A stretch of 64,000 nt of DNA from Aminobacter niigataensis (GTDB lineage Bacteria > Pseudomonadota > Alphaproteobacteria > Rhizobiales > Rhizobiaceae), in contig NZ_JACHOT010000006.1 in NCBI RefSeq assembly GCF_014200015.1, positions 1 to 64,000 of the forward strand, given 5' to 3'. The translations under genes and the position numbers were made by a program. Shown in pieces: positions 23,784 through 51,111 of the stretch. The stretch's first letter is position 1. Each line of letters starts with the position of its first letter. A model generated the notes under the pieces. It was given only the letters and a program-made list of their open reading frames with translations. It did not search any database and was not told the origin of the DNA.

Positions 23784-23827
23784 CAGGCCCGTGCCCTGTC
23801 CTGTTTGCCTGAGAGCTGAAATTGTAT

Positions 23828-26629: not shown

Positions 26630-26767
26630 CGAATCGCTCCCGACAATATCTGGCAACAACCCAAAGCTGCTATCGTGCAACCCCTGACATATGCTGAAGA
26701 TGTTCGATGATGCCGGACGAAATGGCCGTATCGGCGCCACTTTCGTTGTTCATGGTTAATACTGTCC

Positions 26768-30959: not shown

Positions 30960-32039
30960 TCAATCGCTGTAGGCATTGCGCAGGTTCCAGCCGAACCGTG
31001 CCGTATCCCGCAGGCGCTGAATCGCCACGCGCGGCCAGGAGAAGTCGGCGCGATAGGTCTTGCCGACATAGCCGGAATAAGCCCAGGCAAACGAGAGTGA
31101 AATACCGCCGGAGCATTGATCAAGAGGCTCGGCACGGTACCGGCTGAGGAAATCCGCCGCGAAGCTCTTCAGCGTCTGCGCTTGCGCGTCGCTTACTCCC
31201 GCCGGCATGCGCACCGTCTGCGCGTCCAGCCCCTCGATCGTCGCCAGGACGATCAGCGCGATATAGGCCTCGCCAAGTTCCGTCGAATGGACGGTGTCGG
31301 TAAACAGCGCCCGTACGATGTCTTCAGGTGACATATCTTCAAAGCCAGCGCGGGGAGCGCTGGTGAGATGGTCGACCAGTTCGGCCAGGGCGAGGCTCGC
31401 CGGGATGAAGCCGATGCCTGACGTGCTCTTGCCAGACGCCGCGGCACCACTGGCGGCTTGCACCGCGCATCGCCAGACCGGCAAGGCAAGCCGTTCATAG
31501 GCGATCCAGTCCCGCGGATCCTCCTTGTCTGACACGTCCAGCCACGGCGCCATGAACCAAATCGCCCCCAAGGGATTGGTCTCGAGGAATCGGCCCTGGT
31601 ATTCGGCGAGATAACGCACCGTGCCTTGCCGCATGATCGTATCGAGCAGGGAGTGCAGTTCCGTCACGAGCAGAACGTCATAGGTCGCGCCCCCAACGGA
31701 CGGTTGGCGAAATTCGGCGAGGACGTCGACGGAGCCGCCATTGCGATTCATGCCAGCTTTGAAGCCCGACCAAGGGCGCTCGGGATCGGATCCCATGGAG
31801 CGCTGTTCGAGCGACGAGCCGCCGATGTTCTGCATGTTCCAGACAACGGGCCGGCCCGCGCCCGCGGCCATTTCCGCCAGCTTGTCGAGCATCGGCCGGT
31901 CCGTGAGGCTATGGCCGGAAACAAACAATCTCATCGGCGCAACCCACTCCAGGGTTTGCTCCGCGGCCGAAAGGGCGATTGCCGCCGGAGCAATGAACAA
32001 TCCCGCCGCGCACAGCACCAGTCGTCGCATGCCCCACAT
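30960..32039 (-). CDS. Secreted SGNH-hydrolase-like protein
   Basis: 359 aa with a signal peptide (hydrophobic 8-25). FVSGHSLTD carries a block I serine, VTELHSL lies in the middle, and DTVHSTELG resembles the block V Asp-x-x-His pair. Such proteins are esterases or O-acyltransferases acting on polysaccharides. The ATG at 32039 overlaps the upstream glycosyltransferase stop by one base (TGATG), so it is the last gene of the NRPS operon. It could transfer or remove the acyl group made by that system. The family call is from motifs only. Confidence 0.68.
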   Translation of the reverse strand: MWGMRRLVLCAAGLFIAPAAIALSAAEQTLEWVAPMRLFVSGHSLTDRPMLDKLAEMAAGAGRPVVWNMQNIGGSSLEQRSMGSDPERPWSGFKAGMNRNGGSVDVLAEFRQPSVGGATYDVLLVTELHSLLDTIMRQGTVRYLAEYQGRFLETNPLGAIWFMAPWLDVSDKEDPRDWIAYERLALPVWRCAVQAASGAAASGKSTSGIGFIPASLALAELVDHLTSAPRAGFEDMSPEDIVRALFTDTVHSTELGEAYIALIVLATIEGLDAQTVRMPAGVSDAQAQTLKSFAADFLSRYRAEPLDQCSGGISLSFAWAYSGYVGKTYRADFSWPRVAIQRLRDTARFGWNLRNAYSD

Positions 32040-33322
32040 CACGCGTAGGATGCAATCAGTTCGGCGCGTTGACGATAGACCGTCGCCTCATCGAAACGAC
32101 GACCGCAAGAGGCAGCATCACGCACCAGTTTGACGAGGCGGCCGCGATCCCGATCCAGTTCGGTAATGAGCTTTGCCAGGCCAGCGAAATCATCCATGGC
32201 GCTGAACATCCCACCGCCGGCACCTTCGACCAGGCCCACCGGATAGTGGGTACCATATCCCACGATCGGACACCCCGAGACCAATGCCTCGATCAGGCAG
32301 CGGGGCGATTCAGGCGTCTTGTGGCAGAACAGGAAGAGATGGCTTTCGCGTAAGGCATCTAGCACCTTGTCGCGGTCGCCTACATAGCCGGCCAGTTCGA
32401 CATGGTTTCCAAGGCCAAGCTGTTTTACCGTCAACTGCATCTGGTCCAGCAGCGGGCCGTCACCGAGCCAGGTCGCCCGAACATCGACGCCAGCCTGTAC
32501 GACGCCGTGTATGACGCGCAGCCAGTCTTCCGGCCCTTTCATTGCAACCGCACGCCCAACATAGACGATGCGCAGGGGTGCAGCCGCCTCAATCCCTGCC
32601 AGTTTTTGCTCGATCTGTTCGGCATTGATGAAATCCTCCGGCTGCGTGTGGACGTCATAGACGCAGGCAGGATTGGACGAATACTTCTCGTAGGCTTTGA
32701 AAGTATCCATGCCTTGGAAAAGGCCAAGCGAGGACTTGCGCACCAAATGTCGATGATAGGCTATCATCACCGGCAGCGTCATTCTTTCCTTGACACGCCG
32801 TCGAAACCGCAAAGCATGCAACGTGTTGCGCAGGACGTCATGTTCGACGCGGTCAAACCATGTCGCGAAACGGCGCCCTTGTTTGATCGCTTCGAGGGCA
32901 GCAACACCACCCCAATCACCAAAGACGTACCCGAGCGTGAAGCACAGCTTGTCGGCTTTCCCGATCTCCTCCGCCAGTTGCCGACGCGTTGCCCGATATG
33001 CACGGGCAAATGCTCCGATCTTGTAGGCAAAGGGCAGCGGCACGATGCGCATGCGGTCCCGATTGGGCAGGCTATCTATGTCGACCCAGGTCACGGACGC
33101 GTCGTCGCAGTCATCGCTCTCCTGCAACAGACCGCAATAGACGACACGCTCGAAATGCTCGGTCCAGCGTACTAGCCCCGCACATGTCTGGTCATCCAGT
33201 TGCAGACCGCGTGGTCCCCGACGCAGACGCACCATGGTGACCAGGAGCAACGTTTGGCCGCGCGCGGTAGCTTCCATGGCCGCGCCCATGTGCCTTTGTT
33301 CGTCGTATTGCACCAGGCTCAT
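32039..33322 (-). CDS. Glycosyltransferase, GT4-like
   Basis: 427 aa GT-B fold. The C-terminal half shows IVYVGRAVAMKGPEDWL (donor-domain start), WLGDGPLLDQM and ESPRCLIEALVSGCPIVGYG, the EX7E-type donor site. It overlaps the phosphopantetheinyl transferase gene by 4 bp and the SGNH gene by 1 bp. Being cotranslated with an NRPS suggests it glycosylates the NRPS/PKS product or prepares its glycan acceptor. Confidence 0.82.
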   Translation of the reverse strand: MSLVQYDEQRHMGAAMEATARGQTLLLVTMVRLRRGPRGLQLDDQTCAGLVRWTEHFERVVYCGLLQESDDCDDASVTWVDIDSLPNRDRMRIVPLPFAYKIGAFARAYRATRRQLAEEIGKADKLCFTLGYVFGDWGGVAALEAIKQGRRFATWFDRVEHDVLRNTLHALRFRRRVKERMTLPVMIAYHRHLVRKSSLGLFQGMDTFKAYEKYSSNPACVYDVHTQPEDFINAEQIEQKLAGIEAAAPLRIVYVGRAVAMKGPEDWLRVIHGVVQAGVDVRATWLGDGPLLDQMQLTVKQLGLGNHVELAGYVGDRDKVLDALRESHLFLFCHKTPESPRCLIEALVSGCPIVGYGTHYPVGLVEGAGGGMFSAMDDFAGLAKLITELDRDRGRLVKLVRDAASCGRRFDEATVYRQRAELIASYA

Positions 33323-34011
33323 GCCGACAGTTCCCTTTGCGCGGCTTTTTCCTTGACGTTTTTCAGCGCAACACTAGTGGCAATGAATTCGGATGTAATC
33401 GCGATGCGGCCACTGGCTTGGTAGCCGGACAGGAACGGCTCGGCGTCTACGCGAAACCTGGCAAGGAAGCTGCCGCTGGCCATATCCAACGCTACCGAAA
33501 CGGCATGGAAACCGATGATTTGTCGCGATAGCGGGTATTGAGCCTTGTAGACGCTTTCCTTGGCGGAAAAGATGGCCTTCGCTAGGAGCCCTCGCCCAGG
33601 CTCAGCCTGCCTCGCCAGCCACCGTAGCTCGTCGTCATCGCATATCGTGTCGAGGAGGTCTTCGTCTAGCGGTGTCGCCGGTTCGACATCTATGCCGATC
33701 GAACTGCAATCCTGGCTTTCGCGCGCCACGGCCGCAACGCACAAGCCGGAGCAATGGCTGATGCTTCCAACGATGCCGGCCGGCCAGACCGGCGCCCGAT
33801 CCGACGCTGCAGGGATCGCAGCCTGTGGCACGCCCAGCGACGCCATCGCCTGGCGTGCCAGCGATCGGCCTGCTGCAAACTCGCGGCGACGGGATTCCGT
33901 CGCTCGCGACACATAGGACTGCTCGATGGGATACATCACTGCGGCCAGCGAGCGGGGATCCCCCTGCGCTGTCGCCACATGCCCATCGAATAGCTCGGCG
34001 AGCAGACCCAT
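33319..34011 (-). CDS. Sfp-type 4'-phosphopantetheinyl transferase
   Basis: 230 aa, the two-lobed Sfp length. GIDVEPATPL is the magnesium-binding motif and FSAKESVYKAQY the second signature (F-S-x-K-E-S-x-x-K). It converts apo carrier proteins to the holo form with CoA. The start codon overlaps the NRPS stop by one base (TGATG). It is almost certainly dedicated to the carrier domains of the adjacent NRPS (S1471) and PKS (S1822). Confidence 0.93.
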   Translation of the reverse strand: MGLLAELFDGHVATAQGDPRSLAAVMYPIEQSYVSRATESRRREFAAGRSLARQAMASLGVPQAAIPAASDRAPVWPAGIVGSISHCSGLCVAAVARESQDCSSIGIDVEPATPLDEDLLDTICDDDELRWLARQAEPGRGLLAKAIFSAKESVYKAQYPLSRQIIGFHAVSVALDMASGSFLARFRVDAEPFLSGYQASGRIAITSEFIATSVALKNVKEKAAQRELSA

Positions 34012-37000
34012 CAGCTTTCTCGCAGGCGCTGCATCGCGGCGCGCCGGTCGCCGAGCGCGGCTCGGCGCATGGCGGCGCGGTCTGCAACCTGGCTGAGCCG
34101 CTCGTCGGACTTGCCGCGGTCGGCAAGATGCGCAGACAGCGCCGCCACCGTCGGGAAGCGGAACAGATCGGTGATGGCGATGTCGGGCGCGACCGATGCC
34201 TTCAGTTCCCGGTGCGCCTGCACGGCCAGCAGCGAATGACCTCCGAGCGCAAAGAAGCTGTCGTTGAGCCCGACACGCTCGACGCCGAGGATCCGGCGGA
34301 AGGTTTCAGCGATTTCCCTCTGCACGTTGTCGACCGGTGCGACGTAGATCTCGGCTTCCGCCTCGCGCTTGGCCTCAGGCTTCGGCAGGGCCTTGCGGTC
34401 GACCTTGGCATTTGGCGTCAGCGGGAAGGCGTTGAGCGTTACGAAATGCGCCGGCACCATGTATTCCGGCAGCGACTTCGCCAAATGGGCGCGCAAGGCA
34501 CTCTCGTCGAATTTCTTCTCCTTGAGGCGCAGATAGGCGACGATGCGCACGTCGTCGGCGCGATCCTCGCGGGCCATCACGACGCTCTCGGCGATACCGG
34601 GGAACTCGGCGATCCGCGATTCGATCTCGCCAAGCTCGATGCGATAACCCCGCACCTTAACCTGATGGTCGGTGCGGCCGAGGAACTGCAGGACGCCGTC
34701 GGTGGTGTAGCGCACCAGATCGCCGGTGCGATACATCCTGCCGTCGGCAAAGGGATTGGCCACGAAGCGCTCGCGGGTCAGGTCGTCGCGGCCGAAATAG
34801 CCGCGCGCCACGCCCTCGCCGCCGATGACGAGTTCGCCGGCCATACCAGGCGCGACAGGACGAAGCGACGCATCGAGCACATAGAGCTGCGTGTTGGCGA
34901 TCGGCTTGCCGAGAGGCACGACGCCCTCGCCGATGTCGGCCGTCATCGTCGAGGACCAGATGGTCGTCTCTGTCGGGCCATACATGTTTTCGACCGGCGC
35001 CGAGGTCACCTTGCGCAGTTCGGCCAGGAGGGACGCCGGCAGCGCCTCGCCGCCGATGAGCAGATGACGGACCTGCTTGAGGGCCTTGCGGTCCTCCTCG
35101 TTGACAAGGAACATGCGCGCCATCGACGGCGTGCACTGCAGGTGCGTCGCTCCATGAGCTGCGATGTCGGCTGCAAGCGCGCTTTGTGGCATGGCCTCGT
35201 CCGCTTCGGCCCCACGCGACCGTGCAACCACCTCGGCCAGCGGCTTCAGACGCTCCAGCACGATGTCGCTCGGAATGCCATAGTCGATCAGGCAGGCGAC
35301 CTCGTCGACGCCGATGGTCGCGATCTGGTCGACGCGGTCGAGCGCATCGTCGACGGTGCCGAACAGGCCGCTGTCTTCGAAATAGCGCAGGAAGGCGAAT
35401 TCCAGGATGGCATCGAGTTCGTCCGGCTGCAGCGACTGCAGGTCGATGTCCATCGGCTGGACCACGCCCTGCGGCTTCTTGAAGGCTGGGAAGGCCCAGG
35501 CATATTGCTTGATCAGTGCCGCAGCGCTGCGCAGATAGTCCTTCATCGGGCCGCGCGCACGCTCCCGCACCTCCTCGCGATCCGCACCGAGCAGCGTGTG
35601 CAGCATCAGCGTGACCTTGTGCGCGCTCGGGTCGTGGCCAGCCTCGGCCAGCGCCTCGCGATAGACGCGGATCTTGCCGGCCAGCTCGTCGATCGACTGG
35701 CCGAGCAGATGGGTCAACACATTCGCGCCCAGGCGACCGGCTTCGCGGTAGGTGTCGGTATTGCCGGCCGTGGTGATCCAGACCGGCAGCTCCTTTTGCA
35801 CCGGCCGCGGCTGGGTCACGACACCCAGCTTGCCATCGCCGAAATCGAACTCGACCTTTTCGCCGCGCCATAGGCGGCGCACGGTCTCGATGTCACGCAG
35901 CATAGCCGCCTTGTTGTGCGGCGGCGCGTTCTCCGGCCGCAGTACGAAATCTTCGGGCATCCACCCCGACGCGAAGGCCAAGCCGACGCGGCCGTTGCTG
36001 ATGTTGTCGAGGATGGCCCACTCCTCGGCTACGCGCGCGGGATGGTGCAGCGGCAGGACGCAGGAGCCCGCGCGGATCGCCAGGTTCTTCGTCACGGCAG
36101 CGACCGCAGCTCCTGTCACCGCGGGGTTCGGATAGGGACCGCCGAAGGCATGGAAATGCCGCTCCGGCGTCCACAGCGCCTGGAAGCCATGCTCGTCGGC
36201 GAACTTCGCCCCTTCCAGCAGCAGCCGGTACTTTGCTGGCCCGGCGCCGTCGTCATTGCCCCAGTAGAACAGACCGAAATCCATCGGCGCCTTGCCGCTT
36301 GCGCGGCGGCGCGGCACTGCCGGAGCCGCGTTCTTGTGGTCATGCACGTCGCTTGCATGGATCACCACCTTGAAGCCCCGCGCCAGCGTCCAGAACAGCT
36401 CCAGCACGGAGATGTCGAAGGACAGGCTGGTGACGGCGAGCCATACCGGCTGTCCGGCTTCATCGACCGTGATCCGGTCGTCCATGCCAACGAAGAAATT
36501 CGCGACATTGCGATGCTCGACCATCACGCCCTTGGGGCGGCCTGTCGAGCCCGACGTGTAGATCATGTAGGCAAGGTTGGCCGGGGTGACGCCGCTGCGC
36601 GGCCGCTCGGCACTGCCGGAGGCCGCGAGGATGTCTTCGACATTCACACGCCGGGCGCCGTCCACGGCAAGCGATCCATCGAGCGAACGCTCGCTGAGCA
36701 CCACCGGCGCGCCGCTGTCTTCGACCATCAGGGCAAGCCGGTCGGCCGGGAACATCGGGTCGAGCGGCACATAAGCACCGCCGGCCTTCTGGATTGCCAG
36801 CGCCCCGATGACGAGCTCCGGCGAACGTGAGACATGGAGGCCGACCAGCGTGTCCGGCTTCACGCCGAGTTCGATCAGCCGGTGGGCGACGCGGTTGGCC
36901 TTCTCGTCGAGTTCGCGATAGCTCAGCGACCGCTCGCGGAAGGCGACCGCGATGGCGTCCGGCGTCAGTTCGGCCTGTCGCTCGATCAACGTATGTACGC

Positions 37001-38645
37001 AAGCCGTACGATCATGGTCGCGCGCGGTCTCGTTCCAGCCATAGAGGACGCGCTGGCGCTCTTCCTGGGACATCAGCGGCAGCTCGGAAACCGCCTTGTC
37101 GCCGACGGCAAATGCAGCGGCGAATGTGCCCAGCCGGGACAGCATGTCGGCAAGGTCGCGCGCGCCAATCCGCGCCTGATCGGCCAAGACCAGGGTCTCG
37201 TCCGTACCGAGCACGAATGTCAGGGCCGACCCCTCGACAAGGCGATCCTGGGAGGGCGACGCCGCTTCCACCAGCCCGACGGCCAGGGGCGGAACTACCA
37301 GTCCGGGAACGCGCTCCACGAGGTCGGACACGTGGGTGCCGCGCTCGCGCTGCTTGCCCAGGGCTTCATTGGTCCGGGCTGCGAAAGCCTCGACCGTTTC
37401 ATCCGGAGACTCGATGCGGAACGGAACTGACTTGGCGAAATACCCTGGGAACTGGCTGTCCAGCGCTGCGACGGCATCCGTCGCATAGGCGATGTCGAGG
37501 GAATCCTGGCCGGAGAAACGAGCCAGGAAAGCGCCAATGGCGGCGGCGCGGGCTCCTGACGGAACCGGCAATTGCAACGGCTGCGCGATCACCCGCGCCT
37601 CGCTGTCCGGCGACCATGCCCTCACGTCGGGCAAATCGACATCGCGCGCGGCGGCAAGCGCCTTGCGGAAGCGCCCCTCATGGCTGGCGGCCCGAGCAAC
37701 TGCCTCGTCCAGCGCCTGTGCTTCGGCGTCGTTCATCAGCGGCAGGCGCATCCCCTGGCTGAGGCAGGAACTCAGCGTCTTGCCTGCATTGCGCCCAAGG
37801 CCAATCCCCTGCACCAGCACATGCTGGTCTGCCGCTGCAATGACGGCGCCGTCATCCGAAACCGAAATCACCGTGCCGGCGGGCTGGCCGTCGGCGTGCC
37901 CGATTGCCTCGAACTTCGTGACCGCGAACAGGCCGGCTTCGGTGCGCACCTTCGCCCGGGCCAGCGGGTTGGCATAGCCGGAGCCGAAATCGAGCCCGCG
38001 CGCCACGCGCGACAATGTCTGCGCATCGCGGTCGAAACGCAGCGTTCCAGCGGCCGCCGGGCGGCGGTCCCTGGCGTAGTAGGTGCGCTGCGACAGATCC
38101 TGCGCCTGCGGCGCTAACGCGCCTGTTTCGATGGCGGTCAGCATTTCCTCGAAGGTCGCGATGCCCGCTTCGAAGCATCTGGTGTTGAGGGTGAGCGCTG
38201 TCTCGTCGGGGCCGATCTCGACCATGCGCTGCGTATAGATCTCGCCCTCGTCGACCCGCGCCGTCAGCGCATGCCAGGTGACACCGTGGCCTGCCTCGCC
38301 TTCCATGATCGCCCAAGCCGGCGCATTGAGGCCGGCATAGCGCGGCAATGGACCGTCATGGAAATTCGCCGCACCCTGTCGTGCGTTGCGCCAGAGTGCA
38401 TCCGGGATGATGCGCAGGTTGGCCGCACTGAAAAGCCAGTCATAGGCGACCGTTGCGAGCCGCACCTCGACGTCGCTGTCGAACGCGCAAACCGGGAGGC
38501 CAAGGCCTTCAGCCCAATTCCGGATCGACGCATTGTCCGTGACGATCATCGCGACGGCATGGCCATGGGCCCGCACGATCTCGGCGCATTGCACCAGAAG
38601 CGACTCGTCCCCGATCAGAACGCATTCCAATTGCCCTGATGGCAT
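34011..38645 (-). CDS. NRPS: formyltransferase - partial C - adenylation with embedded luciferase-like monooxygenase - PCP
   Basis: 1544 aa. Residues 1-310 form a methionyl-tRNA-formyltransferase-like domain with N94, H96 and D132 as the catalytic trio. About 345-540 resembles only the C-terminal half of a condensation domain; the HHxxxDG motif is absent. The adenylation domain shows A3 YTSGSTGRPKG (about 695), A4 SFDISVLELF (about 744), A5 NMYGPTE (about 1220), A7 YRTGDL, A8 VRGYRIELGE and A10 NAKVDRK. A luciferase-like FMN monooxygenase (788 to about 1140, MupA/Atu3671 type) sits between A4 and A5. The code I read, DILQLGMIWK, is glycine-like. PCP serine is S1471. Predicted starter: N-formylglycine, possibly oxidised. 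Confidence 0.93.
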   Translation of the reverse strand: MPSGQLECVLIGDESLLVQCAEIVRAHGHAVAMIVTDNASIRNWAEGLGLPVCAFDSDVEVRLATVAYDWLFSAANLRIIPDALWRNARQGAANFHDGPLPRYAGLNAPAWAIMEGEAGHGVTWHALTARVDEGEIYTQRMVEIGPDETALTLNTRCFEAGIATFEEMLTAIETGALAPQAQDLSQRTYYARDRRPAAAGTLRFDRDAQTLSRVARGLDFGSGYANPLARAKVRTEAGLFAVTKFEAIGHADGQPAGTVISVSDDGAVIAAADQHVLVQGIGLGRNAGKTLSSCLSQGMRLPLMNDAEAQALDEAVARAASHEGRFRKALAAARDVDLPDVRAWSPDSEARVIAQPLQLPVPSGARAAAIGAFLARFSGQDSLDIAYATDAVAALDSQFPGYFAKSVPFRIESPDETVEAFAARTNEALGKQRERGTHVSDLVERVPGLVVPPLAVGLVEAASPSQDRLVEGSALTFVLGTDETLVLADQARIGARDLADMLSRLGTFAAAFAVGDKAVSELPLMSQEERQRVLYGWNETARDHDRTACVHTLIERQAELTPDAIAVAFRERSLSYRELDEKANRVAHRLIELGVKPDTLVGLHVSRSPELVIGALAIQKAGGAYVPLDPMFPADRLALMVEDSGAPVVLSERSLDGSLAVDGARRVNVEDILAASGSAERPRSGVTPANLAYMIYTSGSTGRPKGVMVEHRNVANFFVGMDDRITVDEAGQPVWLAVTSLSFDISVLELFWTLARGFKVVIHASDVHDHKNAAPAVPRRRASGKAPMDFGLFYWGNDDGAGPAKYRLLLEGAKFADEHGFQALWTPERHFHAFGGPYPNPAVTGAAVAAVTKNLAIRAGSCVLPLHHPARVAEEWAILDNISNGRVGLAFASGWMPEDFVLRPENAPPHNKAAMLRDIETVRRLWRGEKVEFDFGDGKLGVVTQPRPVQKELPVWITTAGNTDTYREAGRLGANVLTHLLGQSIDELAGKIRVYREALAEAGHDPSAHKVTLMLHTLLGADREEVRERARGPMKDYLRSAAALIKQYAWAFPAFKKPQGVVQPMDIDLQSLQPDELDAILEFAFLRYFEDSGLFGTVDDALDRVDQIATIGVDEVACLIDYGIPSDIVLERLKPLAEVVARSRGAEADEAMPQSALAADIAAHGATHLQCTPSMARMFLVNEEDRKALKQVRHLLIGGEALPASLLAELRKVTSAPVENMYGPTETTIWSSTMTADIGEGVVPLGKPIANTQLYVLDASLRPVAPGMAGELVIGGEGVARGYFGRDDLTRERFVANPFADGRMYRTGDLVRYTTDGVLQFLGRTDHQVKVRGYRIELGEIESRIAEFPGIAESVVMAREDRADDVRIVAYLRLKEKKFDESALRAHLAKSLPEYMVPAHFVTLNAFPLTPNAKVDRKALPKPEAKREAEAEIYVAPVDNVQREIAETFRRILGVERVGLNDSFFALGGHSLLAVQAHRELKASVAPDIAITDLFRFPTVAALSAHLADRGKSDERLSQVADRAAMRRAALGDRRAAMQRLRES

Positions 38646-38952
38646 GTGCCCGACCCCATGAACTGCGATTGCTGCCGTATCTATATACGAATTGATCTAA
38701 ACAAGAATGAGAATACCCTCCTTGTTTTCCATCAGGACTTCAATGTTTGGTTAAGGCTGTAGCGCGACAGTGGCATCAATATCGTCGCAGGGGCTGCGGG
38801 TCTGACCTGACAGCGGAAAGCTTAACGCCGTTTTCATTCTAGATGTTTCTTAGAATGAGCCTATCGGCAGGACGATTGGATATCGGCTACTGTGTTACCC
38901 GTATCCAGGCTTGGCTTGCCAAAGGAATAATAGGCTCTCGGGGCATTACGCG
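38646..38952. promoter_or_regulatory. Divergent promoter region between NRPS and PKS genes
   Basis: 307 bp, AT-richer than its surroundings. It holds the inverted repeat TCATTCTA-N9-TAGAATGA (38834-38841/38851-38858), a looser AAACAAG/CTTGTTT pair (38699-38705/38721-38727) and one TTAACCAA half-site on the minus strand near 38750. The internal AATGAGAAT recalls a Fur-type hexamer, but this is weak. No gene is present. It probably controls both megasynthase operons together. Confidence 0.5.
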
Positions 38953-41900
38953 ATGTATGAAACCGATCAGGTGTCTCCGAACGACATCGCCATTGTCGGC
39001 ATGGCGCTTCGCGTGCCGGGTGCGCGCAATGTCCGCGAATTCTGGGACAACCTGCGCGGCGGCGTGGAGTCGATCCGCGATTTGACGGAAGAAGAGCTGC
39101 TTGCCGCGGGCGAGTCCGCCGCGCGCATGCATCTGCCCAACTATGTGCGCCGCACCTCAGAGCTTCCCGGCATGGAGATGTTCGATGCCGACTTCTTCGG
39201 GCTGAGTCCCAAGGAAGCGGCGATCATGGACCCGCAGCACCGCCATTTCCTGGAATGTGCCTGGGAGGCGATGGAGGACGCCGGACGCACGCCCGATTCG
39301 AGCGCCGGTCCCGTCGGCGTCTTCGCCGGCTGCGGCATGGGCTCCTATTTCTACTTCAACGTCTGCAGCAATCGCCAGCTTGTCGACCAAGTCGGCATGT
39401 TCCTTTTGCGTCACACCGGCAACGACAAGGACTTCCTCGCAACGCGCGCCTCGTTCGCCTTCGACCTGCGTGGTCCGAGCGTCAACATCCAGACGGCATG
39501 CTCGACCTCGCTCGTCGCGATCCACACCGCCTGCCAGAGCCTACTTGCCGGCGAATGCGAAATGGCGCTGGCCGGAGGCGTCACCATCGAATTGCCGCAC
39601 CGGCGCGGCTATCTGTTCCAGGACGGCGAGATTCTCTCGACCGACGGCCATTGCCGCGCCTTCGACCATCGTGCCGACGGCACGGTGTTCGGCAGCGGTG
39701 CCGGCGTGGTCGTGTTGCGCCGCCTGTCCGACGCGATCGCCGATGGCGACATCATCCACGCCGTCATCAAGGCGACCGCCGTCAACAATGACGGCAGCAG
39801 CAAGGCCGGCTATCTCGCGCCGAGCGTCACCGGCCAGGCCGAGGCCATCATCGAGGCGCAAGGTCTCGCAGGTGTTTCCGCCGACGACATCCAGTATGTC
39901 GAGTGCCACGGAACCGGCACCTATCTCGGCGATCCGATCGAGATCGAGGCGCTGACGCAGGCCTTCCGGCAAAGCACCGCGCGCACCGGCTTCTGCCGCG
40001 TCGGTTCTGTGAAGTCGAACATCGGCCACCTCGACACCGCTGCCGGCGTGGTCAGCCTGATCAAGACGACCTTGGCGCTCAAGCATGGCGAGATGCCGCC
40101 GACGCTGAATTTCGAGAAGCCCAATCCTGCCATCGACTTCGCCCGCAGTCCGTTCATCGTCAACGACAAGCTGACCCCTTGGCCGGCAGCTGCAGGACCG
40201 CGACGCGCGGCGGTGAACTCGCTGGGCGTCGGCGGAACCAACGCCCATGCGATCCTCGAGGTTGCGCCCAAGCCGATAGTCGGCGCTGCAGGCACGGGCG
40301 ACCGGGAGCCGCAGCTTTTCCTGTTTGCCACCAAGAGCCGCAAGGCGCTGGACCGCGCCATGGAGCAGATCGGCGAGGAAATTGTCCGGCAGCCGGCGCT
40401 GCCGCTCGCCGATGTCTCCCACACCTTGTTTGCCGGGCGAAAGCACTTCGAGCACCGCCGCGCCATCGCTGCACGCGGGCGCGACGAGGCCATCGCCCTG
40501 CTTTCCGGTTCCGAACCGAGGCGCGTCCACACCCACAGCACGATCGAGGCCGCCAACGCCGTGTTTCTGTTTCCGGGCGGCGGCGCACAGCATGTTGGCA
40601 TGACCCGCAGCCTGTATGCCGAGGATGTCGGATTCCGTGCGACCGTCGATGAGGGCTTGAACTATCTCAAGCCGGAAGCCGCAACCGAGATCCGCCGCGT
40701 ATGGCTGGCGGCCGATACCGACCCGTCCCTTGCGGCGAGCGATTTCCTCCGGCCTTCGGTGCAGCTTCCCGCCATCCTGATCGTCGAAATCGCCATCGCA
40801 CGGCTTTGGATGCGCTGGGGCATCAAGCCCTCGGCGCTGATCGGCCACTCCATGGGCGAGAATGCCGCCGCCTGCATCGCAGGCGTGATGAGCTTCCGCG
40901 ACGTCGTCAATCTCGTCCGCCTGCGCGGCGAACTGTTCGACACGGTCGAGGCCGGCGGCATGCTGTCCGTCCCGCTGTCGCCCGAAGCCCTTTCCGAGCA
41001 TATGAACCCGGCGCTCGACCTCGCCTCGGTGAATGCGCCCGAGCTCTGCGTGGTTTCGGGCCGCAATGGGGATCTCGAGGCGCTGCGCCTCAGGCTAGCC
41101 GAGCGCGGCATCGATGCATCGCGCATCGCCATCGATATCGCTGCGCATTCGCAGATGCTGGACCCGATCCTCGGACAGTTCGAAGCGTTCCTGCGCGGCA
41201 TCGACCTGCGGGCGCCGACCATCCCGATCGTTTCCAACCTCACTGGCGAATGGCTCAGCGAAGCTCAGGCACGCGACCCGCTCTACTGGGTCCGGCATCT
41301 CCGCTCGACCGTCCACTTCGCCAAGGGTCTCGCCGCGGTTTCGGCGCAGCCGGGGCGGGTCTATGTCGAAGTGGGCCCGAGCCGGGCTCTGTCGTCACTG
41401 GTCAAGCTTCAGCCGGGCATCGAGGCAAACCAGGTCATTAACAGCCTGCCGCATCCCGACGAGGCTACCGACGACCGCGTGCATTTCCTCGCCGCGATGG
41501 GCCGCGCCTGGGCGACCGGTCTCGACGTGAGCATCGCCAAGCTGTGGGAGGGAAGCGGCGCGCGGCGCGTGTCATTGCCAACCTATCCGTTCCAGCACCA
41601 GCGCTACTTCATCGAGCGCAGCGTCGCGGCGGTAGCCAACGAGAACGAGCAGGACTTCATCGGCAAGCTTCCCGAGATGGCAGACTGGGGTTTCCGGCCA
41701 AGCTGGAAACAGGCATTGGCCGATGTGACGATCGACGCCGATGCCCAGCCGGCATCCTGGCTGGTCTTCATGGACGATACGGGCCTGAGTGCAGCACTGG
41801 TCGAACGGCTTCGCGCCAAGGGCCATCGCGTTGCCACGGTCAAGGCCGGCGACGGCTTCGTAAGGCACGACAGCGGCGACTACACCCTGTGCGCCGAACA

Positions 41901-44900
41901 GGAACGGCCAGGCTATGACGCGCTGTTTTCAGGGCTCGCCGGCGACGGCGGCGTCCCCGAGCGCATCGTGCATCTCTGGCTGGTGACGGCCGAGGAAACC
42001 TTCCGCCCGGGTTCCAACTTCTTCAACCGCAACCAGGAACGCGGCTTCCAGAGCCTGTTCTTCATCGCCCAGGCGCTTGGCGACATCGAGGGCCTCGAGC
42101 CGCAGATCACCGTCGTGACCAACGGCATGCAGCGGGTCGGCAGCGAAGCCCTGCCCTATCCGGAAAAGGCAACCATCCTCGGCCCCGCGCTCGTCATGCC
42201 GAAGGAAATGCCGGGCGTCACGGTTCGCCTCGTCGACCTTGAATTTTCGGTGCCGTCTCGGCCGGACAAGGGCGGCTTCTTACGGACGCGCACGGCAGCG
42301 AGCGACTTTGCGGCATCATTGCGTGGCCAGCAGCTCGACCAATTGTGGGACGACATCTTCGCTGCGCCCGCGTCGGAAACCGTTGCCCACCGCAAGGGCA
42401 AACGCTGGATTCGCAGCTACGAGAAGCTGGCGCTTGCCGAAGCCAATGCCGATAACGGCTTGCTGCGCACAGGCGGAGTCTATCTGATCACCGGCGGCCT
42501 TGGCGATCTCGCTCAGGTCGTCGCCGGCGAACTTGCATCACGTTTCCAGGCAAAGCTGGTCCTGACCGGACGGCACGCACTGCCGCCTCGGGAGGAATGG
42601 GAAAAACTGGCCATTCCGCTCTCGCGCAACGACCGGATACGCCGCGCCATCGAGGCAATCCAGAGCCTGGAGGCCAAGGGGGCCGAGGTGCTCTACGTCA
42701 CCGCCGACGTAAGCAACGTCGAAGACATGACAGCGGTTGCCGACGAGGCGCGCGCCACTTTCGGCGACATCAATGGCGTGTTCCACGCCGCCGGTCTCGT
42801 CGACGACAACCTGATCCAGCTGAAGTCGCTGGAGGGGATGGAGGCTGTGCTGTCGCCGAAGCTGCGTGGCACCGTGGTTCTCGACCAGGTCTTCCGTGAC
42901 AGCCCACTCGATCTCTTTGTGCTGTTTTCGTCGACCAGCACCGACACGGCTCCCGCCGGACAGGTCGACTACGTCGCCGCCAATGCCTATCTCAACGCCT
43001 ATGCCGACAGCCGTTTCGCAGACAGCTCACGCAAGACCGTCGCGCTCCACTGGGGCGTCTGGAACGCTGTCGGACTGGCGGCGCGTGCCACCGGCCAGGC
43101 GGGGCAAGCGGGGCAAGCGGGGCAAGCCGACGCGCCAAACCCGCATCGTGGCAAGGCACAAGGACCGTTCTTCACCGACTGGGTGGAGGACACGTCGGGC
43201 GATGTTTGGCTCGAGACGCGCATTTCACCGCGCAGCCACTGGATGCTCGACGAGCATCGCCTGGTCTCGGGACAGGCCATCCTGCCGGGTACCGGCACGA
43301 TTGAAATCATCGCCCAGGCGATGAAGGAGTACGGCGTCGATCAGGGCGGGGAGCTTGCTGATCTCTTCTTCCTGCGCCCGCTCGAAGTCGATGACGGGCG
43401 CGACAAGATCCTGCGCGTGCGGCTTGCCGCCGACGGCGATCGACAACGGGTGCTTGTCACCGCCGCCGATGCCGAACTCATGTCGGAAGGCTTCACCCTC
43501 CACGCCGAAGCGACGCTGCGCAAACGCCTCGCCAAGCCACACGCTGCCTCCGATGTCGCTGCCGCTTCGGCGCGCCTGACCGTGGGCCAGCGCGCCGAAG
43601 GCGAAGCTGCGCTGCGCTCGGTACAGGAAGATCATATCCACTTCGGGTCACGCTGGAAGGTGTTGCGCTCCCTTGCCCGCGGGGATCGGGAAGCCTTTGC
43701 CGAGCTCAGGCTCGATGAGGCCTATCGCGGCGACATCGCCACCGGCTTCATCGCCCATCCAGCGCTGCTCGACATCGCCACCGGATTTGCACTCGACTTG
43801 GCGCCCGGCCATGCGACATCCCACGCCCTGTGGGCGCCGATGTCCTACGGCAGCATCGCGCTCTACATGAAGTTGCCCGAGGCGATCGTCAGCTGGGCGC
43901 GGCTGAGCGAGGCATCGGATCTCGGTGACGGATTCGCGACCTTCGACATCACAATCGCCACACCAGACGGCAGCATCGTCGTGGAAATCGAGCGTTTCGT
44001 CATGAAGCGGCTGGACGACGACCTCGCCTTGGCTGCAACGCAGCGCGTTGATCGCGCACGCAAGCCTGCGGGCGATGACAAGGAACCGCTGTCGCCGGCG
44101 GCACTGCAGCTTGCTGCGCAGGTCAGCCAGGGCATCCTGCCGGCCGAGGGCTTCGAAGCCATGATGCGTGCGCTCGGCACCGGCCAGCCGCAGCCGATCG
44201 TGAGCTCGATGGATCTCGGATCGCTGCGCAAACGTGCGTCCCAACCGCGCGCCGAAGCGCAGGGCGCGGGCGAGGTCTTCGAACGTCCCGATCTCGACAA
44301 TGACTATGTCGCGCCGCGAGACGACATCGAGCGCACGCTTGCCGGATTCTGGAGCGAATTGCTCGGCGTCGAGAAGATCGGCGTCCACGACAGCTTCTTC
44401 GACATTGGCGGCCATTCGCTGATCGCGGTGCGCCTGTTTCGGATGATCCGGAAGCAATTCGCAATCGACCTGCCGATCTCCGTGCTGTTTGAGGCGCCGA
44501 CAATCGCCGAGTGCGCGGCGCTGATCGGCGAGCAGGCCGCGCCGCTGTCAGCCAAGACGGAAGAAGCCGCCGCTCCGAAGGACAATAAGATCGAGAAGGC
44601 CACTCACCTGGTCACGATGAGCGCGGGACGCTCGGGCGGAGGAACACCGTTCTTCCTCTGCGCCGGCATGTTCGGCAATGTACTCAATCTGCGCCAGTTG
44701 GCCATGCAGCTCGGCACCGACCGCCCGGTCTACGGGCTCCAGGCGCGCGGTCTCTATGGCGACCAGGAGCCCCACGACAACTTCGTCGAGATGGCACGCG
44801 ACAATCTCAAGGAGGTTCGCGCCGTCCAGCCGCACGGACCCTATCTGCTGGGCGGGTTCTCCGGTGGCGGCCTCGTTGCCTACGAGATGGCGCAGCAGCT

Positions 44901-45447
44901 GCTCGCCGGAGGCGAGGAAGTCGCGCAAGTGATCCTGCTGGACACGCCGCTGCCGACACAGCCGCCGTTGTCATTGCTCGACCGGCTCTCGATGAAGCTT
45001 CAGGATCTGCGCCGGGAGCGGCATAATTTCGTCGCCAGATGGATCGACGATCGCCGCCGGTGGAAAGAAAGAGTCGCAGGCCGCGCGGATGCCGAACAGG
45101 CCGAGCAGTCTTCCGAGCAGTTCCACGATTTGGCGATTGAAAACGCCTTCCGCGCCGCATTGCCACGCTACGAGCTCAAGCCCTACGCGGGCAGCGTGCT
45201 GCTACTCCGGCCGAAGCTCAACGTCATCTATCGTTTGAGCGGCGGGCGCATGTTGCAGGACGGCCGCAACGTTGCGATGGAAGACAATGGCTGGACGCCC
45301 TTTGCCGCCGGCTTGACCGTGCAGGAAGTGCCCGGCGACCACGACAGCATGGTGCTGGAGCCTTTCGTGCGCATTCTCGCCGACCGTATCCGCAAGCGGC
45401 TCAAGGAACCGGCGCGCGGGCTCGCCTACGGCATGGCGGCGGAATAG
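38953..45447 (+). CDS. Type I polyketide synthase: KS-AT-KR-DH-ACP-TE
   Basis: 2164 aa. KS: C183 (TACSTS), H319 (HGTG), H359 (NIGH). AT: S633 (GHSMGE), H732 in IAAHS; malonyl-CoA is likely but not certain. KR: ITGGLGDL (1179-1186), S1326, Y1340. DH-like: H1435 and D1607, but the motif is H-x4-G rather than H-x3-G and the usual DxxxQ reads DIATG. ACP: S1822 (GGHSL). TE: S1970 (GFSGGG), with LLDTPLP and GDHDS. KR precedes DH, unlike canonical DH-KR order. The ATG at 38953 begins just before the KS; the ribosome site is weak. It probably extends the NRPS starter and releases the product. Confidence 0.94.
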   Translation: MYETDQVSPNDIAIVGMALRVPGARNVREFWDNLRGGVESIRDLTEEELLAAGESAARMHLPNYVRRTSELPGMEMFDADFFGLSPKEAAIMDPQHRHFLECAWEAMEDAGRTPDSSAGPVGVFAGCGMGSYFYFNVCSNRQLVDQVGMFLLRHTGNDKDFLATRASFAFDLRGPSVNIQTACSTSLVAIHTACQSLLAGECEMALAGGVTIELPHRRGYLFQDGEILSTDGHCRAFDHRADGTVFGSGAGVVVLRRLSDAIADGDIIHAVIKATAVNNDGSSKAGYLAPSVTGQAEAIIEAQGLAGVSADDIQYVECHGTGTYLGDPIEIEALTQAFRQSTARTGFCRVGSVKSNIGHLDTAAGVVSLIKTTLALKHGEMPPTLNFEKPNPAIDFARSPFIVNDKLTPWPAAAGPRRAAVNSLGVGGTNAHAILEVAPKPIVGAAGTGDREPQLFLFATKSRKALDRAMEQIGEEIVRQPALPLADVSHTLFAGRKHFEHRRAIAARGRDEAIALLSGSEPRRVHTHSTIEAANAVFLFPGGGAQHVGMTRSLYAEDVGFRATVDEGLNYLKPEAATEIRRVWLAADTDPSLAASDFLRPSVQLPAILIVEIAIARLWMRWGIKPSALIGHSMGENAAACIAGVMSFRDVVNLVRLRGELFDTVEAGGMLSVPLSPEALSEHMNPALDLASVNAPELCVVSGRNGDLEALRLRLAERGIDASRIAIDIAAHSQMLDPILGQFEAFLRGIDLRAPTIPIVSNLTGEWLSEAQARDPLYWVRHLRSTVHFAKGLAAVSAQPGRVYVEVGPSRALSSLVKLQPGIEANQVINSLPHPDEATDDRVHFLAAMGRAWATGLDVSIAKLWEGSGARRVSLPTYPFQHQRYFIERSVAAVANENEQDFIGKLPEMADWGFRPSWKQALADVTIDADAQPASWLVFMDDTGLSAALVERLRAKGHRVATVKAGDGFVRHDSGDYTLCAEQERPGYDALFSGLAGDGGVPERIVHLWLVTAEETFRPGSNFFNRNQERGFQSLFFIAQALGDIEGLEPQITVVTNGMQRVGSEALPYPEKATILGPALVMPKEMPGVTVRLVDLEFSVPSRPDKGGFLRTRTAASDFAASLRGQQLDQLWDDIFAAPASETVAHRKGKRWIRSYEKLALAEANADNGLLRTGGVYLITGGLGDLAQVVAGELASRFQAKLVLTGRHALPPREEWEKLAIPLSRNDRIRRAIEAIQSLEAKGAEVLYVTADVSNVEDMTAVADEARATFGDINGVFHAAGLVDDNLIQLKSLEGMEAVLSPKLRGTVVLDQVFRDSPLDLFVLFSSTSTDTAPAGQVDYVAANAYLNAYADSRFADSSRKTVALHWGVWNAVGLAARATGQAGQAGQAGQADAPNPHRGKAQGPFFTDWVEDTSGDVWLETRISPRSHWMLDEHRLVSGQAILPGTGTIEIIAQAMKEYGVDQGGELADLFFLRPLEVDDGRDKILRVRLAADGDRQRVLVTAADAELMSEGFTLHAEATLRKRLAKPHAASDVAAASARLTVGQRAEGEAALRSVQEDHIHFGSRWKVLRSLARGDREAFAELRLDEAYRGDIATGFIAHPALLDIATGFALDLAPGHATSHALWAPMSYGSIALYMKLPEAIVSWARLSEASDLGDGFATFDITIATPDGSIVVEIERFVMKRLDDDLALAATQRVDRARKPAGDDKEPLSPAALQLAAQVSQGILPAEGFEAMMRALGTGQPQPIVSSMDLGSLRKRASQPRAEAQGAGEVFERPDLDNDYVAPRDDIERTLAGFWSELLGVEKIGVHDSFFDIGGHSLIAVRLFRMIRKQFAIDLPISVLFEAPTIAECAALIGEQAAPLSAKTEEAAAPKDNKIEKATHLVTMSAGRSGGGTPFFLCAGMFGNVLNLRQLAMQLGTDRPVYGLQARGLYGDQEPHDNFVEMARDNLKEVRAVQPHGPYLLGGFSGGGLVAYEMAQQLLAGGEEVAQVILLDTPLPTQPPLSLLDRLSMKLQDLRRERHNFVARWIDDRRRWKERVAGRADAEQAEQSSEQFHDLAIENAFRAALPRYELKPYAGSVLLLRPKLNVIYRLSGGRMLQDGRNVAMEDNGWTPFAAGLTVQEVPGDHDSMVLEPFVRILADRIRKRLKEPARGLAYGMAAE
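43093..43128 (+). repeat. Nine-base tandem repeat coding for GQA in the PKS
   Basis: Units GGGCAAGCG at 43102 and 43111 are exact, with diverged copies at 43093 and 43120, giving GQAGQAGQAGQA. It lies in the linker just after the KR domain. Such a repeat can change length by slippage without breaking the frame. Confidence 0.75.
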
Positions 45448-46791
45448 CTATTCGGCAACCGCAGTCTGCTGGACGCCTGGTACGCCGAAGAGTTCGCCGA
45501 TCAGGCCCGTTTCCGCCGCGATCGTATACTCGGCGGCGATCAGGTCGTAGCGCGCATTGTTGAGATTGATTTCCGAATTGGCGAGGTCGGCAATCGCCCT
45601 TATCTCGTCAAAGGTCGAGCGCTCGCCGACCTTGCGTTCGGCGCGTACGCCCTCGAGGGCCGAGGCGGCGTTGCGCCGTTCCGCCTGGGCCAGAGTCTGC
45701 ATGCGCCTTGCCAGCACGCGGCGGTCGAATGCGGACCGAATCGCGGCAGTCACGCCAATTCGCGCGGCATCGGCTTCGAACACCGCGGCGCGGTTTTCAT
45801 CGTTGCGCTGTCTGATACCGGCACTGACACGGCCACCCGTGTAGATCGGCATCGAGAACCGCACCTCACCACGACCTGCGACATGGCGATCGACGCCGGG
45901 AAGCGTATCCTCGCCGCCCCGCACGCTCAGCCCCGCGGACACGGTCGGCAGCAGATCGCCCTTTGCCTGATTGACCCGGGCCTTTGCCGCATCGGCGCGG
46001 GCATCGCGTTCCTTGACGCGCGGATTGTTTTTCACAGCCAGTTCGATGAGGTCCTGTTCTTCGCTCGGCAGATAGAGCTTAGAGACCTCCGGCAGTTTCG
46101 TCTCGGGTGTGATCCCGAGCCGCAGCGCCGTGCGGCTCGCCTGGGCAATCAACAGCCTGGCGCGCTCACGCTCGACCGACAAGCGCGACAACTGGCGCCC
46201 GACGTCGTCGACGTCGACGCGACTTGCTGCGCCTGCCTTCAATTCAGTCTCTAGGCCGCCTTTCAGGCTGGCGAGAATGGCTGCCTGCTTGCTCAGGATG
46301 ACAACGGCGCCCTTCTGGCGGTGGACTTCTATCAGCGCCAGCGCCAGTTCATAGGCGGCGGAAACACGCCTGTCATTGGCCACCTCGCCGCTGGCGCGGT
46401 AGTCCGCCTTGGCAGCAGCCACGGCGGACTGTCCCCTGCCACCCTGGTAGAGCGGGATGTCGACCGTCAGCGCATAGGAATAGGCATTGCCGGTCGTGCG
46501 GCTGTCGAATTCGTCGCCGTCGCCGGCTGCAACACCCGCGCTCGCCTCGATGCCGGCACTTGGCAGCAGGGTCGACCGCGCGCGCGCAATCTCCTCGCCG
46601 GCCGCATCGCGCCGTGCATCAGCTGCCAGTATTTCCGGATGGGTATTGATCGATGCAAGGTTGCTGCCGACGCTGCCAGTCACGACCTTGCCGGTCGCGG
46701 GAGCGGAAACCTGGCGGACAGCGCCGTTGGCGCACCCTGCAAGCGCAACGCAGGCACTCAACACCGCTACAGCCGTTCTGCAGTAAGACAT
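45448..46791 (-). CDS. TolC-family outer-membrane efflux lipoprotein
   Basis: 447 aa. A lipoprotein signal (VALAGC at about residue 19) is followed by two OEP repeats, as in NodT/CusC-like channels; ARSTLLPSAGIEASAG and ARVNQAKGDLLPTVSAGLSV are the paired repeat segments. The ATG at 46791 is used because the lipobox follows; the 30-codon extension is unsupported. Its stop codon directly abuts the PKS stop codon on the other strand. No inner-membrane pump or adaptor is nearby. It may export the NRPS/PKS product. Confidence 0.87.
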   Translation of the reverse strand: MSYCRTAVAVLSACVALAGCANGAVRQVSAPATGKVVTGSVGSNLASINTHPEILAADARRDAAGEEIARARSTLLPSAGIEASAGVAAGDGDEFDSRTTGNAYSYALTVDIPLYQGGRGQSAVAAAKADYRASGEVANDRRVSAAYELALALIEVHRQKGAVVILSKQAAILASLKGGLETELKAGAASRVDVDDVGRQLSRLSVERERARLLIAQASRTALRLGITPETKLPEVSKLYLPSEEQDLIELAVKNNPRVKERDARADAAKARVNQAKGDLLPTVSAGLSVRGGEDTLPGVDRHVAGRGEVRFSMPIYTGGRVSAGIRQRNDENRAAVFEADAARIGVTAAIRSAFDRRVLARRMQTLAQAERRNAASALEGVRAERKVGERSTFDEIRAIADLANSEINLNNARYDLIAAEYTIAAETGLIGELFGVPGVQQTAVAE

Positions 46792-47466
46792 CAGCGATCG
46801 CCAACCCGTTTTCTTAGACCAGTTTATGCGTGGCGGGTCGCAGGACCACGCCGTAATAATAACCAGGTGGTAAACAAACACGGTTAAGGCATGGTAAACA
46901 CTTGATGCCCAGCGTCAACGACAGCTTGCATTAATCCTTTGGCTGCACACCGGGAGTTGACAACTTCTTGAGGTAGTTTCAGGGCCGCAAGAACGGCGCA
47001 CCTCTATTGTTCGTCCCCCACGCAGCATGCAAGGAACCAGTTTCGCGTGCAAACGCCCGGTGTTCGGCTTGCCCGTTGCAGGAAATAGGGTTGAGGAAGG
47101 GACTGACCGAGGCATACCTGAAGTGTCCATCCTAACATCACCAGGAAACGGGCGATAAATCTGAAATCCTTCGGATCGCATGGGCGTCATTTTTATCGAT
47201 CTTCTCTTCAATTCTTCTTTATCGAAAACCCCGATGAACCCCGCGCCTTGATTATTGAATTTAAACAGCTACCAATAAGACATGGAATTCGTGCTTGTTG
47301 TCCGCAGTGAGCCGAGGAGGCTCAAAACAGGAATCTAGCCCGGACGTCGACGAAGCCCTGGCCGGGCGTCCGGGAGAGCCAGGCTCCCCAACCTGTTCCT
47401 TTGAGTACGTCCGCGCTGCAGATCGCTTGCTGCGTGCGACACCGGCAGGCACGCACGGAGGCAGCC
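46792..47466. other. Long intergenic region between tolC-like and ptsN-like genes
   Basis: 675 bp without a supported gene. It holds a direct repeat TGGTAAACA (46868 and 46892), the CtrA-like site at 46882, an AT-rich stretch near 47190-47260, and a CCCGGACG/CGTCCGGG stem (47339-47346/47366-47373) in front of the ptsN-like gene. It marks the right edge of the accessory island. Confidence 0.45.
46882..46898 (-). promoter_or_regulatory. CtrA-like box upstream of the TolC-family gene
   Basis: On the minus strand TTTACCATGCCTTAACC fits TTAA-N7-TTAAC with one mismatch and includes the extended TTAACCAT-like left half. It lies about 90-107 bp upstream of the TolC-family start codon. Confidence 0.4.
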
Positions 47467-51103: not shown

Positions 51104-51111
51104 CGATCAAC

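Follow-up and report, generated by a model that had tools for sequence, protein, structure and literature searches.

We analysed a stretch of 64,000 nucleotides of Aminobacter niigataensis (hereafter, the window), which belongs to contig 6 (334331 nt) of a 5.28-Mb assembly in 26 contigs. It carries genes for a nonribosomal peptide synthetase (NRPS), a 4'-phosphopantetheinyl transferase (PPTase), a glycosyltransferase (GT) and a protein of the SGNH type, next to a gene for a type I polyketide synthase (PKS), all within an island of polysaccharide genes. The dedication of this assembly line to surface glycans was well supported. Because relatives of the locus recur in surface-sugar islands of many soil and marine bacteria and are accompanied by a dedicated, exported-type enzyme, the NRPS-PKS probably makes a small group that decorates the cell coat. 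In our specific proposal, which we regard as somewhat probable, the system makes a short formylglycine-primed acyl group for a polysaccharide of the Wzx/Wzy type. We infer the chemistry, the identity of the acyl group, its attachment to the glycan and the direction of the SGNH reaction. The usual reading of NRPS and PKS genes is that they produce free antibiotics, siderophores or toxins. The conserved NRPS-PKS pair described here, which occurs in 63 of 148 genomes of one order (counted by the NRPS), in rhizobia, in a betaproteobacterium and in a myxobacterial metagenome-assembled genome (MAG), behaves as a part of polysaccharide biosynthesis.

The NRPS operon and the glycan island

The core genes of the window were as follows.

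30960..32042, minus strand: SGNH protein (DUF4886-like), putative export, GHS...DxxH; likely start ATG at 32039
32039..33322, minus strand: GT, GT4-type (Pfam/NCBIfam)
33319..34011, minus strand: PPTase, 4PPT_N/ACPS (Pfam/NCBIfam)
34011..38645, minus strand: NRPS, 1544 aa (Pfam/NCBIfam, PDB matches, alignment)
38911..45447, plus strand: type I PKS, 2178 aa from TTG (Pfam/NCBIfam), with the domains ketosynthase (KS), acyltransferase (AT), ketoreductase (KR), dehydratase (DH), acyl carrier protein (ACP) and thioesterase (TE) in this order

An earlier reading of the window, made from the sequence only, had described the NRPS, PPTase, GT and SGNH genes as one overlapping operon with a TE-ending PKS gene divergent from it. 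The coordinates of the open reading frames (ORFs) and the domain scan confirmed both points. The NRPS and PPTase genes overlap by 1 bp and the PPTase and GT genes by 4 bp, while the TGA stop codon of the GT gene overlaps the ATG of the SGNH gene at 32039 by 1 bp. Were the GTG at 32042 the start codon, which is how the gene of Aminobacter sp. MSH1 is annotated, this last overlap would be 4 bp. The PKS gene diverges from the NRPS gene across ca. 265 bp, and an alternative in-frame ATG ('MYETD') lies 14 codons past its TTG. Wzx, Wzy, Wzz and export genes had been placed to the left of the operon, and Pfam/NCBIfam matches bore this out, with the Wzy_C match near its cut-off (34.1 versus 31.7) and the Wzz match slightly below it (24.9 versus 25.5). 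The Wzx, Wzy, Wzz and Wza genes of the Wzx/Wzy-dependent pathway are present in the window. The genes to the left of the operon were as follows.

28212..30950, plus strand: GH9 glycoside hydrolase, convergent with the SGNH gene
26768..28138, minus strand: Wzy/O-antigen ligase-like protein (Wzy_C)
25352..26740, minus strand: Wza-like polysaccharide export protein (Poly_export)
23828..25318, minus strand: Wzz-like protein with a BY-kinase-like domain
22437..23909, minus strand: Wzx flippase (Polysacc_synt_3)
21457..22440, minus strand: GT2 glycosyltransferase
20153..21451, plus strand: GT4 glycosyltransferase, EpsE-like but under the cut-off of the EpsE model

The NRPS of the window was 95.5% identical to those of plasmid pUSP1 of Aminobacter sp. 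MSH1 and of A. niigataensis, and the whole island was syntenic in MSH1.

Domain organisation of the NRPS and the PKS

The NRPS comprised the following domains.

Residues ~1-300: formyltransferase (FT; Formyl_trans_N, Pfam, 64.3 bits)
Residues ~320-550: C-terminal lobe of a condensation domain (six-sequence profile)
Residues 555-1420: adenylation (A) domain (AMP-binding, Pfam), split by the monooxygenase
Residues ~790-1139: inserted luciferase-like monooxygenase (LLM; TIGR04020)
Residues 1444-1507: peptidyl carrier protein (PCP; PP-binding)

Formyl_trans_N precedes A-PCP, as in an NRPS initiation module of the FT type. Residues N94, H96 and D132, which we take to be the Asn-His-Asp catalytic triad of the FT, were kept in all six NRPSs aligned. 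The A-domain code, read by motif, was DILQ[LFYM]GM[IV]W in the same 6/6 (final K not read), and DILQLGxxWK presumably specifies glycine. The loading of N-formylglycine, which the sequence-only reading had proposed, is therefore consistent with the sequence. The A domain is interrupted after an FDIS-type motif by an insert that matched TIGR04020 ('MupA/Atu3671 family LLM') with 481.8 bits against a cut-off of 244.45. Among the 60 PDB matches listed, the monooxygenase of PuwE (6ket), a protein of a different synthetase type (puwainaphycin), covered this inserted domain (residues 788-1136, E 9.7e-105). The profile of residues ~320-550, built from the six NRPSs, matched condensation domains in their second half (McyB, 4e-14). 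The initiation module of LgrA (PDB 6mfz and others) likewise has an N-terminal FT before A-PCP, but the NRPS of the window has half a condensation domain separating FT from A, as well as a monooxygenase within A. A domains of the MtaG/MelG type also contain an inserted flavin monooxygenase, a luciferase-like one inside a glycine-type A domain; those modules terminate the chain and give an amide, whereas the module described here is a formylating starter.

In the PKS, the residues of the catalytic motifs were invariant in all eight proteins aligned: C197, H333 and H373 of KS, S647 of AT, S1341 and Y1354 of KR, H1449 and D1621 of DH, S1836 of ACP, and S1984 and H2144 of TE. Although we assign their catalytic roles by motif, this invariance means that no domain of the PKS looks decayed. 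The KS motif DPQHR was also invariant in 8/8, and no enoylreductase (ER) domain was found in the Pfam/NCBIfam scan.

The domain order and these motifs form the basis for the first half of the proposed mechanism, the synthesis of the acyl group. The A domain would load glycine, and the FT would formylate its nitrogen to give N-formylglycyl-PCP. The inserted monooxygenase would then oxidise the formylglycyl-PCP, probably at the alpha carbon, a reaction for which MtaG/MelG and nitrilotriacetate monooxygenase are precedents. Should the enzyme oxidise nitrogen and not carbon, a hydroxamate would result, and iron binding by the polysaccharide would be conceivable. The PKS would extend the starter by one malonyl unit or a few, KR would reduce it and DH would probably dehydrate it, so that the product might be a short formamido-acyl chain, for instance 4-formamido-3-hydroxybutyryl or 4-formamidobut-2-enoyl, which the TE would release or pass to a sugar of a lipid-linked repeat unit.

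The same domains bear on another explanation, namely that an iterative PKS makes a terminal cap, a primer or a lipid-like anchor of the polysaccharide, roles which have been discussed for PKSs of the RkpA/WcbR type in capsule loci. No NRPS partner or SGNH gene is known to us for RkpA/WcbR. A single PKS module of the KR-DH type could iterate, and an additional A-PCP-C-A-PCP-TE enzyme (C, condensation domain) encoded between the GT and SGNH genes of Hydrogenophaga would also suit such a role. Type I PKSs in capsule loci are moreover a known pattern: according to the available part of the source, rkpA and wcbR occur in such loci among genes for capsule biosynthesis and export, as the PKS gene of the window occurs in a polysaccharide locus, and their products have an intact KS motif, DPQQR (PMC3908369). 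On the other side, an NRPS starter and a TE point to a product that is short and defined, the scan detected no ER, and the invariant DPQHR differs from the DPQQR of WcbR/RkpA (PMC3908369, as far as available). We consider a cap or anchor quite improbable. Membership of the PKS in the RkpA/WcbR group was not adopted either, as the KS motif differs. The PKS of the window also ends in a TE and lacks a detectable ER.

Glycan genes accompany the NRPS in its relatives

Relatives were collected by scanning one genome per species with the NRPS alignment, and the best 80 of at least 570 candidates were kept. These 80 loci are mostly from Rhodobacteraceae and are not independent, and some of them come from genomes that also belong to the samples described below (for example G232/L063 and G627/L086). 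Glycan markers were profiles for Wzx, Wza, Wzz/BY-kinase, sugar transferase, WecB, GT2 and GT4. The profiles were trained on the test and control loci jointly, with most positives from test loci, and were reused in the later counts; they overlook some glycosyltransferases, such as three annotated ones in L137. In stretches of at most 19.9 kb, 18 of which were trimmed to less than 19 kb by contig ends, a glycan marker was found at 76/80 relatives as compared to 1/19 other NRPS loci, hand-picked from 52 Condensation matches and usually represented by one stretch per cluster so that large clusters were covered in part, and 0/20 arbitrary loci, which were positions picked by hand and not by a random generator (window's order). 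When flanks of up to 10 kb per side were used, 78/80 relatives had a marker and 70/80 had a marker other than a GT; the two without any (L068 and L094) are both contigs of ca. 7 kb.

Among 297 genomes sampled from the window's order, FT and LLM occurred together in five others (G295, G196, G232, G117 and G257), and all five loci lie among glycan genes, that of G232 by GT genes only. The neighbours in G117 include genes for Wzz/kinase, GT4, an epimerase, a DegT aminotransferase and a UDP-glucose dehydrogenase. G171, with four FT-like matches, was left uncounted, as two stretches examined showed no LLM; Methylobacterium bullatum and Neorhizobium SOG26 were also left uncounted (no annotation). 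A second sample of 148 genomes covered one order, which appears to be Rhodobacterales, and 63 of its genomes had an FT-NRPS (E <= 1e-25). At 20 of these 63 loci that were examined, GT genes and the PKS were present in 20/20, the PPTase in 19/20 and the SGNH gene in 12/20. A Wzx, Wzz, Wza, sugar-transferase or WecB marker was present in 16/20, while glycan markers occurred at 2/20 arbitrary loci, likewise picked by hand, of the same sample. The gene set was also found outside Alphaproteobacteria, in Hydrogenophaga (with the SGNH gene) and in a Myxococcales MAG (without an SGNH match).

The SGNH partner

The SGNH protein of the window had no Pfam match at E <= 0.001, and two Rhodobacterales homologues at the equivalent place had weak DUF4886 matches below the cut-off (E 0.011 and 0.013). 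Residues G43, S45, D249 and H252, corresponding to the block I serine and the block V DxxH, were invariant in all 27 members aligned. The predicted model (mean pLDDT 86) matched the DUF4886 structure 4i8i (Foldseek 7e-9; Z 21.3, root-mean-square deviation 2.9, 230 aligned) and the periplasmic SGNH acyltransferase domain 6se1 (Z 12.6). The likeness to both extends to the fold and to Ser...Asp-x-x-His, although the identity is only 14-15%; no membrane partner donating acyl groups was recognised among the window proteins scanned. Since the structural matches (VIA-align) include many esterases as well as 6se1, the modelled fold by itself cannot tell a transferase from an esterase. All 26 members that have an N-terminus carry a hydrophobic segment there, which suggests that the enzyme is probably exported.

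In the 148-genome sample, the SGNH family was present in 62 genomes (E <= 1e-15). These were 62 of the 63 NRPS-bearing genomes (G629 being without it) as compared to 0/85 of the others (Fisher p ~2e-41, a value that ignores relatedness), and a copy lay within 15 kb of the NRPS gene in 55/63. Strong SGNH matches in 51 genomes of the window's order, which were chosen by hand from the 297-genome sample and include all six with FT matches, occurred in the NRPS-bearing G295, G196 and G232 and in G253, where the neighbours of the SGNH gene encode a PKS of 40% identity and an LLM-NRPS that has no FT match. Weak matches (1e-7 level) were seen in G274 and G270, and G171, despite its FT matches, had no SGNH match in a genome-wide search.

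The neighbourhood and this co-occurrence form the basis for the second half of the mechanism, the export of the glycan and the action of the SGNH enzyme. The GTs of the island would build the lipid-linked repeat unit, Wzx would flip the decorated unit, Wzy and Wzz would polymerise it and Wza would export the polymer. In the periplasm, the exported SGNH enzyme would transfer the acyl group or, as an esterase, trim it.

Gene order and exchange of sugar-specific enzymes

In annotated Rhodobacterales records, the genes lie on one strand in the order PKS-GT2-NRPS-PPTase, adjacent genes overlapping by at most 4 bp or standing a few to 14 bp apart, and the SGNH gene comes next in Ruegeria conchae and Parasedimentitalea. 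Exact junctions are those of the window ORFs and of annotated records. Over the 80 loci, the gaps and overlaps are approximate, because a loose ORF caller was used that admitted some antisense frames and over-long starts; with gaps of up to 150 bp, one-strand PKS-GT2-NRPS was counted at 32/80 loci and Wzx-PKS-GT2-NRPS at 12/80. Two Roseovarius loci read GT2-Wzx-PKS-GT2-NRPS-PPTase-Wzz, with Wzx and PKS separated by ca. 80-100 bp and Wzz preceded by a gap of 130-215 bp. The NRPS-PPTase-GT4-SGNH operon recurs in Agrobacterium AGB01, which also has Wzx, Wza, Wzz, Wzy and GH9, and in Ectorhizobium. Pairwise distances of the NRPS correlated with those of the PKS (r 0.89 over 71 loci; 0/500 permutations equally high) and with those of GT2 (0.80), Wzx (0.72), Wzz/BY-kinase (0.71), PPTase (0.55) and SGNH (0.41). 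As species relatedness was not removed from these values, they indicate a coherent gene set and not its function.

It might be argued that glycan islands are insertion hot spots in which the NRPS-PKS is unrelated cargo, and such a view would fit the finding that the locus is plasmid-borne in Aminobacter, Shinella, Ruegeria and Paracoccus. However, records of Aminobacter, Agrobacterium and the Roseobacter group repeatedly show tight NRPS/PPTase/GT/SGNH junctions, where genes overlap by at most 4 bp or stand a few bp apart, the SGNH family follows the NRPS from genome to genome in the 148-genome sample, and other NRPS loci were associated with glycan genes in a single case among 19. These observations largely exclude the cargo explanation, to which we assign a very low probability.

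The GT gene of the operon is replaced in A. aganoensis (L091:15327-17748) by one for another GT (Glyco_trans_1_2) together with a gene for UDP-galactopyranose mutase (Glf; 424.6 bits, cut-off 303.75), and both still sit between the PPTase and SGNH genes. The locus otherwise resembles that of the window (identity of 97% for LLM, 92% for PKS and 76% for SGNH). This exchange indicates that sugar-specific enzymes are taken up into the operon of the NRPS. The kind of GT at the operon varies: the window has a GT4, Rhodobacterales have a GT2 whose gene lies between those of PKS and NRPS, and A. aganoensis has another GT with Glf.

Weighing the proposed role

A further explanation holds that the product is a free small molecule, which would be glycosylated by the GT of the operon and exported via TolC or Wzx, with the glycan island as a mere neighbour or a co-regulated unit. 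The terminal TE of the PKS speaks for it, and loci of this kind are classed as hybrid NRPS/PKS clusters by the antiSMASH runs in the available parts of two reports (PMC8273931, PMC10508160). So does the TolC-like gene beside the PKS gene in Aminobacter:

45448..46881, minus strand: TolC/OEP-family lipoprotein (Pfam OEP, LAGC lipobox)

The sequence-only reading had pointed to this gene, and it is indeed present with the lipobox LAGC read from its sequence, but it is convergent with the PKS gene and does not recur: it adjoins the set in Aminobacter and one Devosia, amounting to four loci in the clustering. On account of this count, the TolC-like protein was rejected as a core member, and its lack of conservation speaks against a free molecule. 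Moreover, at 12 of the 80 loci the Wzx gene is lined up with those for PKS and NRPS, almost every relative examined has glycan genes close by, and a UDP-galactopyranose mutase gene has entered the operon of A. aganoensis. We therefore regard a free molecule as unlikely.

The proposal of an acyl group for the Wzx/Wzy polysaccharide has to be held against several observations that weigh on the other side. A terminal TE fits the release of a free acid equally well as a transfer, and no cytoplasmic acyltransferase was identified. Our own profiles, applied to the window only, gave no match to a sugar transferase or WecB, so that no initiating sugar phosphate transferase was detected there. The NRPS is rare in the window's order, where only the genome of the window and 5/297 others have FT and LLM, and in an evenly drawn sample of the class, 239 other genomes yielded two clear matches and a partial one. 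The SGNH partner is also not universal. One profile placed it near the NRPS in 45/80 relatives (flanks of up to 10 kb per side), a count that depends on the profile and the stretch, since the gene looked rare by simple BLAST and was found at 54/93 loci by iterative profiles and at 26/80 in narrow stretches. Genome-wide searches of G117 and G257 and a search of the flank of L055 gave no SGNH match. The sequence-only interpretation was supported in part. The check that it had proposed, on whether GT and SGNH genes keep company with the NRPS-PKS, gave a positive outcome well beyond Rhizobiales. The SGNH gene was not, however, found in every relative, and the GT is not one conserved enzyme.

Two loci, in addition, suggest that the module can serve other products. 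In Aliiroseovarius M344 (L137:20004-33743), a 42%-identical NRPS gene adjoins a 9.2-kb NRPS/PKS gene; the stretch contains no flippase, polymerase or export genes, and its three annotated glycosyltransferases lie at least ca. 16 kb off. A related module is probably used for another product there. A weaker match in Mesorhizobium mediterraneum belongs to a giant NRPS-PKS, with no glycan-assembly genes listed in a gene table that is incomplete.

Relation to described systems

The sequence-only reading knew of no described pathway with this gene set. This still holds for a general association, an SGNH partner or a product, none of which was found described in the open-licence literature searched, but the neighbourhood itself has been sighted in one genome. 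A single sentence on Bosea sp. NBC_00550, the only direct sighting recognised, reports glycosyltransferase and polysaccharide genes near a small NRPS-type I PKS cluster (PMC10508160). An NRPS relative of the window occurs in another Bosea (L066); the two are likened by description only, as the available part of that report concerns a single genome and gives no gene-level analysis or function. The cluster of Paracoccus CP157 was reported as a hybrid cluster, and 'exopolysaccharide' and 'glycosyl' have 0 occurrences in the available text (PMC8273931). Likewise, 'polysaccharide' and 'polyketide' have 0 occurrences in the available text of the paper on the MSH1 plasmids (PMC8460812).

Assembly-line enzymes that serve surface glycans are already known, and there is a fair chance that the NRPS-PKS set is a class of its own among them. 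A wider generalisation seems possible to us but falls short of probable: NRPS-PKS lines may be dedicated parts of Wzx/Wzy islands in which each repeat unit receives an N-formylated, flavin-oxidised amino-acyl ketide that the SGNH enzyme installs or edits. If this is true, the class would be widespread, and in one alphaproteobacterial order about 4 of every 10 members sampled would wear a polymer with a nonribosomal peptide/polyketide side group. A role in polysaccharide biosynthesis could explain product-less clusters in genome mining, and it hints at a new way of decorating surface polymers.

Variants of the locus and neighbouring genes

Several loci differed in composition. The glycan island of Paracoccus marcusii CP157 contains a second NRPS (L136:2775-6653; C-A-PCP-TE by Pfam), and a second one is present by annotation only in another strain of P. 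marcusii (L181:1-1653). The gene overlaps that of a WecB/TagA/CpsF glycosyltransferase by 4 and 1 bp in CP157 and L181, respectively, which suggests that more than one NRPS may serve the glycan. CP157 also has the formyltransferase annotated as a gene of its own (L136:22102-23118), overlapping the LLM-NRPS gene, while one 4.6-kb gene occupies this place in the other strain (L181). Judging from these sequences, the separation in CP157 would be a recent split or a frameshift. In Hydrogenophaga pseudoflava (L072:18768-24773), the additional A-PCP-C-A-PCP-TE NRPS has 2001 aa, and its gene lies between the GT4 and SGNH genes of the operon. The first A domain of this enzyme ends in a DIP2-like AMP domain, suggesting an acyl-loading start. 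The SGNH-PKS pair of G253 (L183/L184) is accompanied by a 1860-aa LLM-NRPS without a formyltransferase match, and our own profiles detected no Wzx or Wzz in this stretch, only two GT4 matches; to judge by its domains, this locus appears to be a variant with another starter. The locus of Aliiroseovarius M344 is on a plasmid with nos genes and the exosortase gene xrtD.

A tRNA-Glu gene (ttc) was found at 14846-14931 of the window, although the island is plasmid-borne in MSH1 and A. niigataensis. To the right of the island, the stretch at 49446-54700 encodes an L-arabinose-type ATP-binding cassette transporter (AraG, 779.9 bits), an aldose epimerase and short-chain dehydrogenases/reductases, and this transporter stretch is common to the window and pUSP1 of MSH1.

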